Assembly: GCF_011065895.1 (NCBI RefSeq)
Contig: NZ_JAALCR010000013.1
Location: forward strand, 1-64,000
Direction: 5' to 3'
DNA from: Paludisphaera rhizosphaerae
Lineage (GTDB): Bacteria; Planctomycetota; Planctomycetia; Isosphaerales; Isosphaeraceae
Length of the DNA stretch: 64,000 nucleotides
In this document: positions 9,814-14,832 of the stretch, in pieces
Numbering within the stretch: position 1 is the stretch's first letter
Layout of the letters: the number at the start of each line of letters is the position of its first letter
Notes under the pieces: generated by a model
Database searches by the model: none
What the model was told of the DNA's origin: nothing
What the model saw: the letters and a program-made list of their open reading frames with translations, nothing else
Translations under genes and position numbers: made by a program

Positions 9814-11034
9814 TCAGGCGAGAGTCACGATGGGCTCAATGTCCCCTTCGGGAATCGCGAATCGACCGACCGCGAATCGGGCCGTCGTCGTGAAGCCCAG
9901 GAACGACCTCCGCGCCGCCGCGCCGAGGCTGCGGTAGATCACGAACGAATCGCCGCGTCCCCAACTCACGCGAGAAGCCCACGCGACGTCCGGCGAGCAG
10001 GCGGCGCCTCGCTCCGCGACGGTCAATGGCTTCCAAGCGAGGGCTTTTCGAGCCCGTTGGGCGTCCCACGAGATGAGCATCACCATCAAGGCTCTCCCGC
10101 CCCGCGACCTCTGGGCCAGGGAGATCCGACGTGTCGCCGGGTCGAACTCGAGCCGGGCGCCGCTAAGGGCCGCCAACTGAGTGACCTTGGCGCCAGGCCG
10201 CTTCCGGAGGCTCAGGCTGCCCAGGTCCGGGATCGACTCGACCGACAGCGGCGCGGGGACGTCCACGTGGGTCTCCCAAACCTCGTCCGGCGCGAGGCCT
10301 TCGACCTGGTCGGCCAGAATCGCCATTCGACGGCCTCGGAGCAGCAAGACGAGTCGCGTGACCTGGCGGCCTCCCGAGCGGAATGTCCACTCCGCGACAT
10401 CCGCGGCTGAATTGGTCCCCCAGGCGGTCGGTTTGGGCGTGGACTCCGGCGAGGGCGCCGACCAGATGGGCCCAAACCAGGGAACGCCCGCGCCGAAGAG
10501 TTCAAACCGAGTTCCGGCGTCGGCCTGTCGCTGGTCGAAAACCAGGAAGTCCCCCCGAGGAGTCCAGTCGGCCCGGAGAACGCCCAGGACGCGATCCGTG
10601 CTCGACCAGGCGGGCAGGGGAGGGGGGACCGGTTCCGCGTCCCGACCCGGCAGCCACCAGGAAAGCACACGGTCGATGTCGGGCCGAGCGATCGCGGTGG
10701 AGACCCGCTTCCAATAGGCCCGGGGAGCCGTCTCGGCCGGAACGATTGCTTGCCGGCCGTCGGGCCGGGAGAACCGCATGAGCATGCGAACGAGGTCGGC
10801 CGCTCGCTCGTCGACGGCCTCCGGCCATCCAGGACGGACCCCACGCGCCTGCGCGATCCGTTCGATGGCGACGGGCCAGACTTCGAGTGGAATTTCGACA
10901 GGTGCTCCGGAAGCGTCCAACTCGCGGGACAGCCAACGCTCCAGCGGCGAGGAATCACCGCGCTTCTCCCAGACGTCGAGCGCCCTCTGGAGGCTGGCCG
11001 GAGTTTCCTGAGGAGCCATTAATTCATCGTTCAT
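9814..11034 (-). CDS. Hypothetical protein of 406 residues
   Basis: No signal peptide and no catalytic motif that I recognise. The N-terminal 100 residues look helical; the C-terminal two-thirds is beta-rich with many Trp and Arg residues (for example WTPRGDFLVFDQRQ and RLVLLLRGRRMAILADQVEG). The second half has a general resemblance to the beta-sandwich of heparinase-like proteins, but this is weak. The frame is long, starts with ATG and has neighbour-like codon use, so the gene is likely real. It diverges from the RNA-repeat region. Confidence 0.7.
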   Translation of the reverse strand: MNDELMAPQETPASLQRALDVWEKRGDSSPLERWLSRELDASGAPVEIPLEVWPVAIERIAQARGVRPGWPEAVDERAADLVRMLMRFSRPDGRQAIVPAETAPRAYWKRVSTAIARPDIDRVLSWWLPGRDAEPVPPPLPAWSSTDRVLGVLRADWTPRGDFLVFDQRQADAGTRFELFGAGVPWFGPIWSAPSPESTPKPTAWGTNSAADVAEWTFRSGGRQVTRLVLLLRGRRMAILADQVEGLAPDEVWETHVDVPAPLSVESIPDLGSLSLRKRPGAKVTQLAALSGARLEFDPATRRISLAQRSRGGRALMVMLISWDAQRARKALAWKPLTVAERGAACSPDVAWASRVSWGRGDSFVIYRSLGAAARRSFLGFTTTARFAVGRFAIPEGDIEPIVTLA

Positions 11035-11598
11035 AACGGCCGTCCAAACGTCCTGTGCGGCCTGCGACCGCGCCTGGATCCGACGTACTCACACACCGGA
11101 AATTCGATCGTTGAAAGCTGCTGTTTATCTCTTCGGCAGAGCCTGCTCGGATCCTGTGCACCAGTGGGTCTCGGGAAGATGAAGTTTTGTTGGATCAGCC
11201 CTCGGAGGGGGCCTCCACGGGGATGCTCCCAAAAAAATTCGCTGGACGTAAGTTTTTGGAGCGTCAGGAAATCGGAATGGCAGCATGGGTGACGGCCCGG
11301 AATCTTGAGGCTGGCGTTTGGGTTCTGGCACCGGCTTTGCTTTATCCTCCTGGCGTCGAAACGAGAAACAAAACGACGACCAAAGTCGAGACGATTCCCA
11401 AGGTTACACCAAGACGGAGACAGGCCTGAACGGCCTCCCATACTTACAAGAAGCCACCCCACTGGCGACGATCGTCTCTGACGATTGCCCCGCCAAAGGG
11501 CGAGCGGGATGCCTCGCACGACCCCCCGCTCGCCCTTTCTCACACGAACGGTTCCGATCCCTGACCGGCACGAAAGGCGGGGAGACGTTGAGCCGAAG
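11035..11598. other. Non-coding stretch before the hairpin array
   Basis: No credible protein-coding frame. An imperfect inverted repeat lies at 11225-11262 (GCTCC-C-AAAAA paired with TTTTTGGAGC), and a strong perfect hairpin is at 11495-11538. A promoter for the downstream RNA-like array could lie here but I could not identify one with confidence. Confidence 0.5.
11495..11538 (+). repeat. Perfect 14-bp hairpin upstream of the array
   Basis: AAAGGGCGAGCGGG (11495-11508) is exactly complementary to CCCGCTCGCCCTTT (11525-11538), with a 16-base loop. It lies about 65 bases before the first array unit. It may be the 5' element of the same RNA or an independent terminator. Confidence 0.65.
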
Positions 11599-11604
11599 CG
11601 AGCC

Positions 11605-11680
11605 AACCGGTTTGTGGATGCGGTTCTTCATGGCCGAGGGAGAGGCGGCCACGGCGTACTGACTCTGCAACCGGTTTTTA
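11605..11680 (+). ncRNA. Array unit 1
   Basis: AACCGG 11605-11610; stem 11631-11636/11646-11651; loop AGGGAGAGG 11637-11645; closing CCGGTTTTT 11671-11679. Between units 1 and 2 another hairpin forms from GGCTC-CGACCC (11686-11696) and GGGTTG (11701-11706) plus GAGCC (11709-11713). Confidence 0.7.
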
Positions 11681-11723
11681 CACCCGGCTCCGACCCCAAA
11701 GGGTTGTCGAGCCAGTTCGAGAC

Positions 11724-11795
11724 AACCGGCGGTGGATGCGGTTCTTCATGGCCGAGGGAGAGGCGGCCACGGTGAACCAAACCGCTGTCCGGTTT
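11724..11795 (+). ncRNA. Array unit 2
   Basis: AACCGG 11724-11729; stem 11749-11754/11764-11769 around the same loop; closing CCGGTTT 11789-11795. It is followed by a small hairpin CGAATCAC-GGGA-GTGGTTCG at about 11811-11830. Confidence 0.7.
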
Positions 11796-11845
11796 ACTAC
11801 AACGGTTCCGAATCACGGGAGTGGTTCGTCGAGCCCATCTGAGCC

Positions 11846-11921
11846 AACCGGTTTGTGGATGCGGTTCTTCATGGCCGAGGGAGAGGCGGCCACGGCGTAC
11901 TGACTCTGCAACCGGTTTTTA
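11846..11921 (+). ncRNA. Array unit 3
   Basis: Copy of unit 1: AACCGG 11846-11851; stem 11872-11877/11887-11892; loop 11878-11886; closing CCGGTTTTT 11912-11920. Confidence 0.7.
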
Positions 11922-11964
11922 CACCCGGCTCCGACCCCAAAGGGTTGTTGAGCCAGTCCGAGAC

Positions 11965-12036
11965 AACCGGCGGTGGATGCGGTTCTTCATGGCCGAGGGA
12001 GAGGCGGCCACGGTGAACCAAACCGCTGTCCGGTTT
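11965..12036 (+). ncRNA. Array unit 4
   Basis: Copy of unit 2: AACCGG 11965-11970; stem 11990-11995/12005-12010; closing CCGGTTT 12030-12036. The trailing hairpin here is CGAATCGC-TGAAT-GCGATTCG (about 12052-12072). Compared with the one after unit 2, an A-T pair has become G-C, which keeps the pairing. Confidence 0.7.
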
Positions 12037-12087
12037 ACTACAACGGTTCCGAATCGCTGAATGCGATTCGTCGAGCCCGCCCAAGCC

Positions 12088-12162
12088 AACCGGCAGTCGG
12101 TCTGGATGTTTGCGACCGAGGGAGAGGCGGTCGCAAGGATCACGAACGCTGTCCGGTTTTTT
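12088..12162 (+). ncRNA. Array unit 5
   Basis: AACCGG 12088-12093; 9-bp stem TTGCGACCG (12110-12118)/CGGTCGCAA (12128-12136); loop AGGGAGAGG 12119-12127; closing CCGGTTTTTT from 12153. A GCCGCC/GGCGGC hairpin follows near 12169-12186. Confidence 0.75.
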
Positions 12163-12194
12163 ACAAGGCCGCCGAACCCGGCGGCACACAAGCT

Positions 12195-12272
12195 AACCGG
12201 TCTGTTGATCCGGAATTTTCACGACCGAGGGAGAGGCGGTCGTGAGAGTTCCAGTCGACGGCCGGTTTTTTA
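12195..12272 (+). ncRNA. Array unit 6
   Basis: AACCGG 12195-12200; 9-bp stem TCACGACCG (12219-12227)/CGGTCGTGA (12237-12245); loop AGGGAGAGG 12228-12236; closing GCCGGTTTTTT from 12261. This last T-run would make a plausible 3' end for the whole transcript. Confidence 0.75.
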
Positions 12273-12420
12273 TTTCGAAGCCGGCCTGCCTCGGCAGCCC
12301 ACCTGAATCGCCGCATCCCGGCTGCTATCCCTTGCAGCCGGCTCTGCTTAGAATAAAGGCCTTCCGCGTCGGCGGCGACGCATGGGAAGACCTCACCAGG
12401 ACCTCGCACCGAGGAGTGGG

Positions 12421-14832
12421 ATGAACGTGGAAGAGCGCTTCGGCCGACGACTGGCGGCATGGATCGTATTTGGGGTGATGGGCTTCGCGGCATGCGGAGG
12501 CGTCGCCAACGCATATCAGCTTTCCGAACCGACGGTCGAGGCGGCCGCTGAACTCGGCTTCGACGCCAATCGGCTGGAGCGAGTGGGGGCGGCGGTGAAG
12601 AAGGCCGTCGATGCGGGGAGTATTCCCGGCGCCGTCGTGCTCGTCGGTCGCAACGGAGGCATTGCGTACGCCAAGGCTTTCGGCAATCGAGCCTCGGAGC
12701 CGGCCGTCGAGCCGATGACGCTCGACACGCTGTTCGACATGGCCTCGCTCACCAAGCCGATCGCGACCGCCACGTCGGTCATGGCTCTCATCGAGGAAGG
12801 CAAGATCCGCCCCAGCGATCCGATCGTGAAGTATTTCCCCGAACTCGACAATCACGGGAAGGGCCGCATCACCGTCGAGCACTTGCTCCGGCATCGCGGA
12901 GGTCTCATCCCCGACAATTCGATCAGCGACTACAAGGATGGCCCGGACGCGGCCTGGAAGAAGATCGCCGAGCTTCAGCCGGTCGCGCGGCCGGGGGCGA
13001 AGTTCATCTATTCGGACGTTGGCTTCATCATCCTGGGCAAGCTCGTCGAGAAGGTTTCGGGCAAGCCATTGTACGTCTTTGCCGCGGAGCGCGTCTTTGG
13101 GCCGACCGGGATGACGGACGCCCACTTCCGTCCTTTGGCCGGCGACGCCTCGAAATGGCCCGCCGTCGCTCGAATCGCCCCCACTGAGAAAGAAGGCGAC
13201 GCCTTCCTCCGCGGCGTCGTCCACGACCCGCGCTCGCGGGCGCTCGGCGGCGTGGCAGGTCACGCGGGCCTCTTCGCCACGGCTGCCGACCTGGCCAACT
13301 ACGCTCAGATGCTGCTCTATGACGGCGTCGCACCCAACGGCGACCGCGTCCTGAGCCCACTGACCGTCCGGCTGATGACGGACCCGGCCGACACCCCGTC
13401 GAACGAGCGTCGAGGACTCGGGTGGGACGTCGCCACCAGTTACAGCAGCCCGCGCGGCGAACTGTTCGGCACGACCGGCTTCGGCCACACCGGATTCACC
13501 GGCACAAGCATCTGGATCGATCCGGAAACGCAAACCTACGTCATCCTGCTGACGAGCCGGCTGCACCCGAAGGGTGGCGGATCGCCGATCTCCCTGCGTC
13601 GCGACGTGGCCACGCTCACGGCTGCCGCCCTCGCCGACCCGCCGGTGTACGACGCCACCTCGAATGAGCCCGTTACCGCCGCGACTCCGCCGGCCACGGT
13701 CAAGTGCGGGATCGACGTCCTGGCAGCCCACGGGTTCGACGCCCTCAAGGGGAAGCGGGTCGGTCTGGTGACGAACCATACCGGTCGCTCCGCCGACGGT
13801 CGCTCGACGATCGACGTCCTCTTCGCGGCCCCCGACGTCAAACTCGTCAAACTCTTTAGCCCCGAGCACGGCCTGCGCGGGTTGCTCGACCACGAGAAAA
13901 TCACGAGCGGCGTCGACGAGAAGACCAATCTTCCCGTCGTCAGTCTGTACGAAGGCAAGAAGCGAAAGCCGCAGGATGAAGACCTGAAGGACCTCGACGT
14001 CCTCGTTTACGACATCCAGGACATCGGCGTCCGCTACTACACGTACATCTCCACGCTCGGCCTGGTGCTCGAGGCCGCCAAGGCCAACGGGAAGCAGGTC
14101 GTGGTGCTCGATCGTCCCAACCCGATCGGCGGCGTCGCCTTCGGCGGGCCGGTCCGGGACGAAGGGGAGGGGACGTTCGTCGCCTATCACACCATCCCGA
14201 TCCGCCACGGCATGACCGTCGGAGAGATGGCCAAGCTCTACAACGCCGAGCGCAAGATCGGCGCCGAGCTGACGGTCATCCCCTGCGAAGGCTGGACGCG
14301 CGACGCGCTCTACGACCAGACCGGCCTGCTTTGGGTGAATCCCTCTCCGAACATGCGCAGCCTTACCGAAGCCCTGCTCTACCCGGGCGTCGGTTGGCTC
14401 GAAGGGACGAACCTGGCGACCGGCCGCGGCACCGACACGCCCTTTGAGCGAGTCGGCGCTCCCTGGATCAAGCCCATCGAATGGGCCCGCTCGCTCATGG
14501 CCATGAACCTGCCGGGCGTCGCGTTCACGCCGGTCGAGTTCACTCCGACCGAACGGCAGTATTCCGGCGAGAAGTGCGGCGGCGTCTACATCCAGATCAC
14601 CGACCGCACAGCGTTCGAGCCGATCCGCCTGGGCCTGGCCCTCGCCTTGACGCTCCGACGCGACTACAAGGAGCAATGGAAGCCCGAGCGCATGCCGACG
14701 CTCCTCACCAGCAAGGCCACCTACGACGCAATCCTCGCCTCCAAGAGCATCGAGGAGATCGAGGCTCTCTGGGTGCAGGGCCTTTCCGACTTCGAGTCGG
14801 TCCGGAAGCAGTATTTGATCTATCCGGAGTGA
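12421..14832 (+). CDS. Serine hydrolase (AmiE/beta-lactamase-like) fused to NamZ/DUF1343 exo-muramidase
   Basis: 803 residues. A signal peptide (about 1-31) precedes a class C beta-lactamase-fold serine hydrolase (about 45-405) with SLTK (Ser109/Lys112), YSD (197-199) and an HTGFTG motif (356-361) in the KTG position. A second domain from about 428 to the end matches DUF1343/NamZ: VGLVTNHTGR, FSPEHGLRG, DIQDIGVRYYTYI, LDRPNPIGG, WVNPSPNMRS and YPGVGWLEGTNLATGRGT. In Bacillus subtilis the separate enzymes AmiE (YbbE) and NamZ (YbbC) work with NagZ in murein recycling; here the first two activities appear joined. The substrate remains inferred. The ATG at 12421 is chosen because GAGGAG precedes it. 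A GC hairpin at about 14857-14879, inside the convergent neighbour, may end the transcript. Confidence 0.9.
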   Translation: MNVEERFGRRLAAWIVFGVMGFAACGGVANAYQLSEPTVEAAAELGFDANRLERVGAAVKKAVDAGSIPGAVVLVGRNGGIAYAKAFGNRASEPAVEPMTLDTLFDMASLTKPIATATSVMALIEEGKIRPSDPIVKYFPELDNHGKGRITVEHLLRHRGGLIPDNSISDYKDGPDAAWKKIAELQPVARPGAKFIYSDVGFIILGKLVEKVSGKPLYVFAAERVFGPTGMTDAHFRPLAGDASKWPAVARIAPTEKEGDAFLRGVVHDPRSRALGGVAGHAGLFATAADLANYAQMLLYDGVAPNGDRVLSPLTVRLMTDPADTPSNERRGLGWDVATSYSSPRGELFGTTGFGHTGFTGTSIWIDPETQTYVILLTSRLHPKGGGSPISLRRDVATLTAAALADPPVYDATSNEPVTAATPPATVKCGIDVLAAHGFDALKGKRVGLVTNHTGRSADGRSTIDVLFAAPDVKLVKLFSPEHGLRGLLDHEKITSGVDEKTNLPVVSLYEGKKRKPQDEDLKDLDVLVYDIQDIGVRYYTYISTLGLVLEAAKANGKQVVVLDRPNPIGGVAFGGPVRDEGEGTFVAYHTIPIRHGMTVGEMAKLYNAERKIGAELTVIPCEGWTRDALYDQTGLLWVNPSPNMRSLTEALLYPGVGWLEGTNLATGRGTDTPFERVGAPWIKPIEWARSLMAMNLPGVAFTPVEFTPTERQYSGEKCGGVYIQITDRTAFEPIRLGLALALTLRRDYKEQWKPERMPTLLTSKATYDAILASKSIEEIEALWVQGLSDFESVRKQYLIYPE

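Follow-up and report, generated by a model that had tools for sequence, protein, structure and literature searches.

A candidate sigma-54-dependent structured non-coding RNA with a constant terminator loop in Paludisphaera rhizosphaerae and other Planctomycetia

Small RNAs that depend on sigma-54 for their transcription include GlmY/GlmZ, Qrr, CrcZ and NrsZ. In Helicobacter pylori, an Hfq-free bacterium, the terminator loop of the small RNA RepG acts as a seed. CsrA-family proteins bind the motif ANGGA, in which the A is conserved (available text of PMC7366521 and PMC7652899). The CsrA hairpins obtained by SELEX mostly have four or fewer contiguous pairs, and added loop bases can reduce the affinity of RsmE (available text of PMC7652899). 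The gene csrA (COG1551) is enriched in Planctomycetia, according to the available part of a sigma-54 regulon study (PMC12316311). Very little was found on small regulatory RNAs of planctomycetes in the literature searched; the table of one review (PMC9029176) gives a figure of 8 for the whole PVC group, taken here as small regulatory RNAs. In the present analysis csrA was found in 99 of 99 genomes, with 2-17 matches each, and Hfq was matched in none of the 99.

The locus described here lies in a window of 64,000 nucleotides (the whole stretch of DNA analysed) from P. rhizosphaerae, contig NZ_JAALCR010000013.1, and contains an array of hairpins. Judged from sequence comparison, this array looks like the 3' part of a conserved, previously undescribed non-coding RNA gene. 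The literature searched (open-access, with many journals missing) held no description of this RNA.

The hairpin array and the predicted RNA gene

Six hairpin units with the common loop NGGGAGAGG are located on the plus strand between positions 11601 and 12272. Each has the layout AACCGG ... AGGGAGAGG ... CCGGTTT, and for all six a single long hairpin is predicted, reaching from AACCGG to CCGGTT around the nine-base loop N-GGGAGAGG. The units occupy positions 11601-11682, 11720-11799, 11842-11923, 11961-12040, 12084-12163 and 12191-12272, and GGGAGAGG is found in them at 11638-11645, 11756-11763, 11879-11886, 11997-12004, 12120-12127 and 12229-12236, respectively. Fold z-scores against shuffled sequences range from -1.89 to -5.95. 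The stablest unit is the sixth (-45.7 kcal/mol, z -5.95), which carries a U-tract at 12266-12271 and is the predicted terminator. A 15-mer spanning the loop has six copies in the array and one elsewhere in the genome (reversed control: none), and the covariance model finds one locus in this genome. The sole other genomic CCGAGGGAGAGGCGG (L001, G000:C12:67187-67201, minus strand) is intergenic by eye and has no covariance-model match.

A 229-nt block is present twice, as units 1-2 and again as units 3-4; the copies lie 241 nt apart and share 97% identity. The duplication is recent, and the array thus holds four distinct units, not six. Among the window units two-sided changes were found at 6 of 22 predicted pairs, together with six broken cells, which amounts to moderate covariation only. 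An earlier note on this DNA had reported six hairpins with one loop and covarying stems. The six units were all recovered, and the stems do covary, but the statement that every change is matched on the other arm was too strong. Long T-runs after CCGGTTT, also reported there, exist in units 1, 3, 5 and 6 (five or six T), whereas units 2 and 4 have just three. Two spacer hairpins are predicted, 3' of unit 2 (11809-11828) and 3' of unit 4 (12050-12070), and the fold prediction agrees with the compensatory A-U to G-C change noted between them. Successive units are 118, 123, 118, 123 and 109 nt apart; coding is unlikely because 118 and 109 are indivisible by three, in line with the earlier finding of no convincing frame. 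The extent of 11599-12272 was drawn too narrowly: the array is real, but the feature is larger, and the promoter and 5' hairpins at 11326-11538 had been missed.

Intergenic stretches from 17 syntenic loci showed both a -24/-12 motif and a strongly conserved block. In the window the predicted sigma-54 promoter, TGGCACCGGCTTTGC, is at 11326-11340 (plus strand). The predicted transcript of about 0.92 kb would extend from about 11352, as estimated from the -12 spacing, to 12272, as estimated from the U-tract. Its 5' part contains hairpin A (11464-11494), with an outer GGCG/CGCC and a variable inner stem in an alignment of 34 loci, and hairpin B (11495-11538), a perfect inverted repeat with arms at 11495-11508 and 11525-11538 and the loop ATGCCTCGCACGACCC at 11509-11524. 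In 40 copies of hairpin B (38 distinct, those from G016 and G023 being the L076 and L073 loci), all 12 loop-proximal pairs always form and nine show two-sided changes, in a pairing register picked to maximise pairing. Since the search pattern included loop B, the constancy of that loop is no independent result. A variant of loop B is present in L131 and L133. In L137 the B module is doubled, with two tandem hairpins whose stems have diverged around the same loop, CCTCGCACGACCC.

The promoter pattern TGGC[AG][CT]N5[TC][TC]GC occurs in 32 of 34 distinct core loci, 149-206 nt 5' of loop B; the remaining two have relaxed forms, found by eye for L073 (in L186, the same locus) and by matrix for L081 (in L141, the same locus). 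A matrix was trained on the 32 matched sites and applied with the criterion that no more than 5 of 100 shuffles match the best site. It detects a site in 37 of 40 loci of family f3, which we guess to be Gemmataceae (in 25 of the 40 the best site is equalled by one shuffle or none). For Isosphaeraceae (f1, the family of the window) the figure is 11 of 12 non-training loci, five of 17 (L125, L126, L129, L130 and L135) having been excluded as the same loci as training loci. The best sites of 28 of the 40 f3 loci start about 24-40 nt 5' of the hairpin match, so that the hairpin is nearly the whole predicted RNA there; such an RNA would be roughly 60-80 nt long, with leader, hairpin and U-tract. 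Close to the hairpin, GGCGAGAG is present in 20 of the 40 f3 loci. A leader sequence GGCGAGAGCC, possibly a mini-hairpin with a GAGA tetraloop, lies by the predicted RNA 5' end in f3 loci such as L146, L151, L163, L147 and L182. Further upstream in the window, at 11132-11148 (plus strand), a weak enhancer-like inverted repeat (TTCGGC..TGC) may be an activator site. The pattern TT[CG][GAT]GC N5-7 TGC[CA][CT] occurs in 18 of 32 loci, 161-205 nt 5' of the -24 box, and at most once per shuffled set (200 sets), but it was chosen post hoc (6 of 32 loci before the spacer was widened) and the window copy is one base off.

The divergent neighbour gene (9814-11034, minus strand) encodes a protein of 406 aa and serves as a synteny anchor; it is not part of the RNA. 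Of 38 Isosphaeraceae loci, the window locus among them, 27 have a homologue in divergent orientation to the RNA (17 of the 20 other first-set loci and 9 of 17 in the second set); these homologues are 27-57% identical to the window protein and much less constant than the loop. The protein has no Pfam, NCBIfam or PDB match, and no homologue was found in 40 f3 loci. Other divergent neighbours are shared there: one gene in 12 genomes (ten f3, two f8), whose L168 copy matches hexapeptide transferase, and another in 12 f3 genomes, whose L155 copy matches FTR, formylmethanofuran-tetrahydromethanopterin formyltransferase. Downstream, at 12382-14832 (plus strand), an 816-aa frame combines a beta-lactamase-fold domain with a NamZ exo-N-acetylmuramidase (NamZ_N, NamZ_C). 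Five of 21 loci have a homologue of it; these five include the window and belong to one genus. None of 60 second-set loci has one, with a few contigs ending nearby. The downstream gene being rarely shared, the RNA appears tied to its own promoter rather than to that gene.

Relatives, stem covariation and loop constancy

A first covariance model, built from the six window units, matched 27 of 99 genomes, its own included. A second model, built from 25 diverse hairpins, was run against 397 genomes of the class (E 0.01 or better) and matched 85 of them, own genome included: 39 of 45 f1 genomes, 43 f3, two f8 and one f5. The model search of planctomycete genomes that had been proposed earlier has thus returned homologues. 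Paludisphaera soli, Aquisphaera insulae and Tautonia sociabilis are among the carriers. Six f1 genomes have no model match. Three of them (G016, G023 and G042) carry the core and a GGGAGAGG hairpin, and in two incomplete ones neither core nor hairpin was found. The sixth, G015 (L187; 81% complete), has promoter and core, no GGGAGAGG hairpin within the 260 nt read, and a GC-rich terminator-like inverted repeat there instead. A draw of 392 genomes from the phylum, with f3 content unstated, gave two matches at E 1e-4, both Isosphaeraceae.

Rfam was searched as well, CsrB/Rsm models included. The window has no gathering match, nor have 34 other loci (of which L033 and L145 overlap) save for a tRNA elsewhere in L142. 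With the threshold relaxed, a single hit at chance level appeared in positions 10950-12450 (E 0.8; it scored 19.2 bits, and the gathering score is 80).

Of 582 cells in the 25 diverse hairpins, 93.6% are paired, versus 73.4% in shuffled alignments, and two-sided changes are seen at 15 of the 16 inner pairs. The choice of pairs was made on this very alignment, which biases these counts towards structure, though hardly to such a degree. None of 500 shuffles scored as high on any of five covariation measures, and sliding the partner register in the 25 hairpins lowered pairing to 23.5-45.9%. Hairpin pairs include 58 G-U against 8 A-C, which assigns the structure to the plus-strand RNA. The earlier description of the array as a candidate new structured RNA is therefore well supported, by presence in 85 of 397 genomes, strong covariation, G-U strand asymmetry, the lack of an Rfam gathering match and the predicted sigma-54 promoter.

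A scan with a core pattern that made no use of the hairpin covered one genome per species in 84,980 species and yielded 28 stretches, all planctomycete. The scan was blind to the hairpin and is thus a fair test of loop constancy. GGGAGAGG lies 3' of the core in all 28; with G042, which has it, and G015, which does not, the count is 29 of 30 distinct loci. It is present in 34 of 34 core loci and starts 97-126 nt 3' of the start of CCTCGCACG. The loop of an intrinsic terminator is expected to be free to vary, and here it is kept in 29 of the 30 core-found loci. One degenerate unit with CGGAGAGG was seen in G003. The base preceding GGGAGAGG is free: in 124 distinct hairpins, which were gathered by the exact 8-mer and so are uninformative on its constancy, f1 has A 41, T 20, G 10 and C 3 of 74, and f3 has A in 22 of 47.

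One hairpin is the norm among the relatives, which the six-unit picture of the earlier note had overlooked. Core loci have one hairpin in 24 of 34 cases; L081 and L086 have two. In the Aquisphaera genus, L047 and L048 have four each and the third genome, L049, has one. The six Paludisphaera-genus genomes have three to seven each, and several f3 loci also encode two-hairpin RNAs. As in intrinsic terminators, a stable hairpin is followed by a U-tract: the longest T-run close to the 3' arm of last or single copies averages 5.9 (range 2-9, n=34). Within arrays the mean is 5.6 for last copies (n=10) and 3.9 for inner copies (n=32; p 0.0017). The longest run replaced an earlier T-count measure, by which last and inner copies within arrays differed at p 0.29, and at p 0.0002 with single copies included. 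The arrays would present a regulatory RNA in the course of gaining sites through tandem duplication of its own terminator.

Proposed mode of action and alternatives

In the reading preferred here, an activator would turn on the predicted sigma-54 promoter at 11326-11340, and RNA polymerase would transcribe hairpins A and B and then at least one terminator-type hairpin, stopping at the last. The working element would be the apical loop N-GGGAGAGG, presented by a long stem of indifferent sequence, and each loop would give a partner in trans a single site to bind. With tandem duplication, as in the six units of the window, a transcript would gain more such sites. The likeliest mode of action would be titration, as a decoy, of a regulator that binds this GA-rich motif, with a CsrA-family protein as the leading, unproven candidate. 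The sequences themselves show the structure, the constant loop, the promoter motif, the synteny and the changes in copy number; transcription, trans action, titration and the identity of the partner are inferred from them. That the locus specifies a sigma-54-driven structured non-coding RNA is highly probable. Conservation of the loop on variable stems suggests recognition in trans, and action in trans through the loop is considered probable. Whether the loop titrates a protein rather than pairs as antisense is evenly balanced, and the entire proposal, a sigma-54-activated trans-acting regulatory RNA working by loop titration with multiplied sites, is given an even chance, the identity of the partner left aside.

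A CsrB-like sponge had been suggested in the earlier note, along with a look for csrA in the genome. The genome has ten csrA matches, nine of them above the cut-off, so a CsrA protein is available as in CsrB/Rsm systems, and the sponge idea itself comes out with evidence on both sides. For it speak csrA in all genomes searched beside the missing Hfq match, the tandem loops, and a csrA paralog for which a relaxed pattern places a sigma-54-type site 87-94 nt 5' of the start in 8 of 8 recognised orthologs (six of the Paludisphaera genus and two of the Aquisphaera genus; 12 of 20 regions gave no pattern-recognised csrA). The leaders of these eight orthologs have GGGAG at the ribosome-binding site in eight cases and GGGAGAG there in four. 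For the canonical csrA paralog, none of 40 leaders shows GGGAGAG, and 2 of 20 f1 cases have a sigma-54-like site. Among the own-genome csrA loci (L062-L069) a sigma-54-like site is upstream of three of eight by the relaxed pattern; the csrA protein pattern misses some genes (L064, L069). The presence of the RNA in f3, where FliW, another CsrA antagonist, was matched in none of 14 genomes, was also counted in favour, as was the csrA enrichment in Planctomycetia reported in PMC12316311.

Against a CsrA-type partner, the A of ANGGA is not conserved in the family (f1 41 of 74, f3 22 of 47), yet it is present in all six window units. GGA is not over-represented, with 245 observed versus 258 expected in 32 RNAs and 17 versus 19.2 in the window, while ANGGA counts 75 versus 53 in the 32 RNAs (mononucleotide shuffles throughout). 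All eight loop bases are kept, though GGA is the main requirement of CsrA. The number of csrA genes does not track the RNA: 17 f2 genomes have 9-17 csrA matches, and f2 is absent from the 85 hairpin genomes. FliW is found in 41 of 45 f1 genomes, and f2 has neither FliW nor the RNA; both were counted against. CsrB/Rsm RNAs have several loop GGA motifs each, as do the six window loops, whereas 24 of 34 core loci have one loop, a poor fit to titration. G015, with promoter and core yet no GGGAGAGG hairpin in the stretch read, also speaks against the preferred reading. With their long stems and nine-base loops, these hairpins contrast with the SELEX hairpins in the available text of PMC7652899. A CsrA-type protein is therefore named as partner tentatively only.

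The strongest alternative is an antisense small RNA in which GGGAGAGG is an 8-nt seed for CCUCUCCC in target mRNAs and tandem copies increase the dose. Such a seed fits the loop about as well as CsrA-type binding does: eight bases are kept in 29 of the 30 loop-blind loci and the adjacent base is free, as a full-length seed predicts. The lack of an Hfq match in the 99 genomes and the f3 RNAs with a single hairpin agree with it as well. A crude search for seed targets found no conserved one; counts of CCTCTCCC before ATG (forward plus reverse/control) were 144/52, 239/80 and 53/8 in genomes with the RNA versus 59/14 and 41/26 without it, which is no contrast. Antisense pairing is rated as somewhat unlikely.

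Another, undescribed sequence-specific RNA-binding protein, not CsrA, might instead be titrated or recruited by the loop. A loop of unchanging size with eight constant purines, set on stems that vary and multiplied in several lineages, would suit such a protein, but no candidate is at hand: the linked 406-aa protein is without homologue in the 40 f3 loci, where the divergent neighbours found are FTR or hexapeptide transferase. This explanation is thought improbable.

The titration reading has also to be set against a repeated attenuator, the other idea of the earlier note, by which the array would be a cis-acting attenuator or terminator cassette for the beta-lactamase/NamZ fusion at 12382-14832. 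A U-tract does follow several units, and the last array copies have the longer T-runs, although last and inner copies were not separated by the first T-count measure. The restriction of the downstream homologue to five loci of one genus, against a far wider occurrence of the RNA and the upstream gene, disfavours the idea, and a constant loop is unnecessary for termination; it is regarded as very improbable. A REP/MITE-like mobile or selfish repeat, or a DNA element of some other kind with no function as RNA, would explain tandem repeats and the recent 229-nt duplication, but can practically be dismissed given the single locus in the own genome, synteny across genera, G-U bias of one strand and sigma-54-type promoters 5' of the hairpins.

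Some further candidates were dropped. A kissing interaction between loop B (CCUC..CCC) and GGGAGAGG was set aside, since the f3 loci and L127, L134 and L138-L140 (Isosphaeraceae) have the hairpin loop and no recognisable loop B. Coding, integron attC sites and mobile repeats were dismissed on spacing, strand bias and synteny.

Comparison with known systems

CsrB/CsrC and RsmX/Y/Z are likewise non-coding RNAs with GGA-containing hairpin loops, and their number of sites varies by lineage. The present RNA differs in its nine-nt loop that is constant over eight bases, in that the A of ANGGA is not kept and GGA is not enriched, and in its predicted sigma-54 promoter, the single site in most relatives and the absence of an Rfam match. 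By the features tested, it is outside the CsrB/Rsm family. The Rhodopirellula-1 motif, listed in a table of PMC2864571, is also a structured RNA candidate with members in Planctomycetes.

By prediction, the RNA works like a sigma-54-dependent regulatory RNA, with a predicted -24/-12 promoter 5' of a predicted non-coding transcript. It shares this promoter type, and possibly an upstream activator site, with GlmY/GlmZ, Qrr, CrcZ and NrsZ, from which it differs in lacking an Rfam relation and an Hfq match and in the terminator loop as its proposed working element. RepG is likewise a small RNA from a bacterium lacking Hfq, with the terminator loop as possible active seed; the loop here differs in being purine-rich, constant and multiplied, and no conserved target was found for it. 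Conserved and countable, the RNA offers something concrete to study: sigma-54 is its predicted switch, and eight bases form its predicted active site. It could, as a tentative view going beyond the locus itself, act as a riboregulator in two or more Planctomycetia families without recognisable Hfq, in which sigma-54 is the switch, the terminator loop GGGAGAGG the active site, the partner novel among small RNA systems and the dose set by duplication of the terminator.
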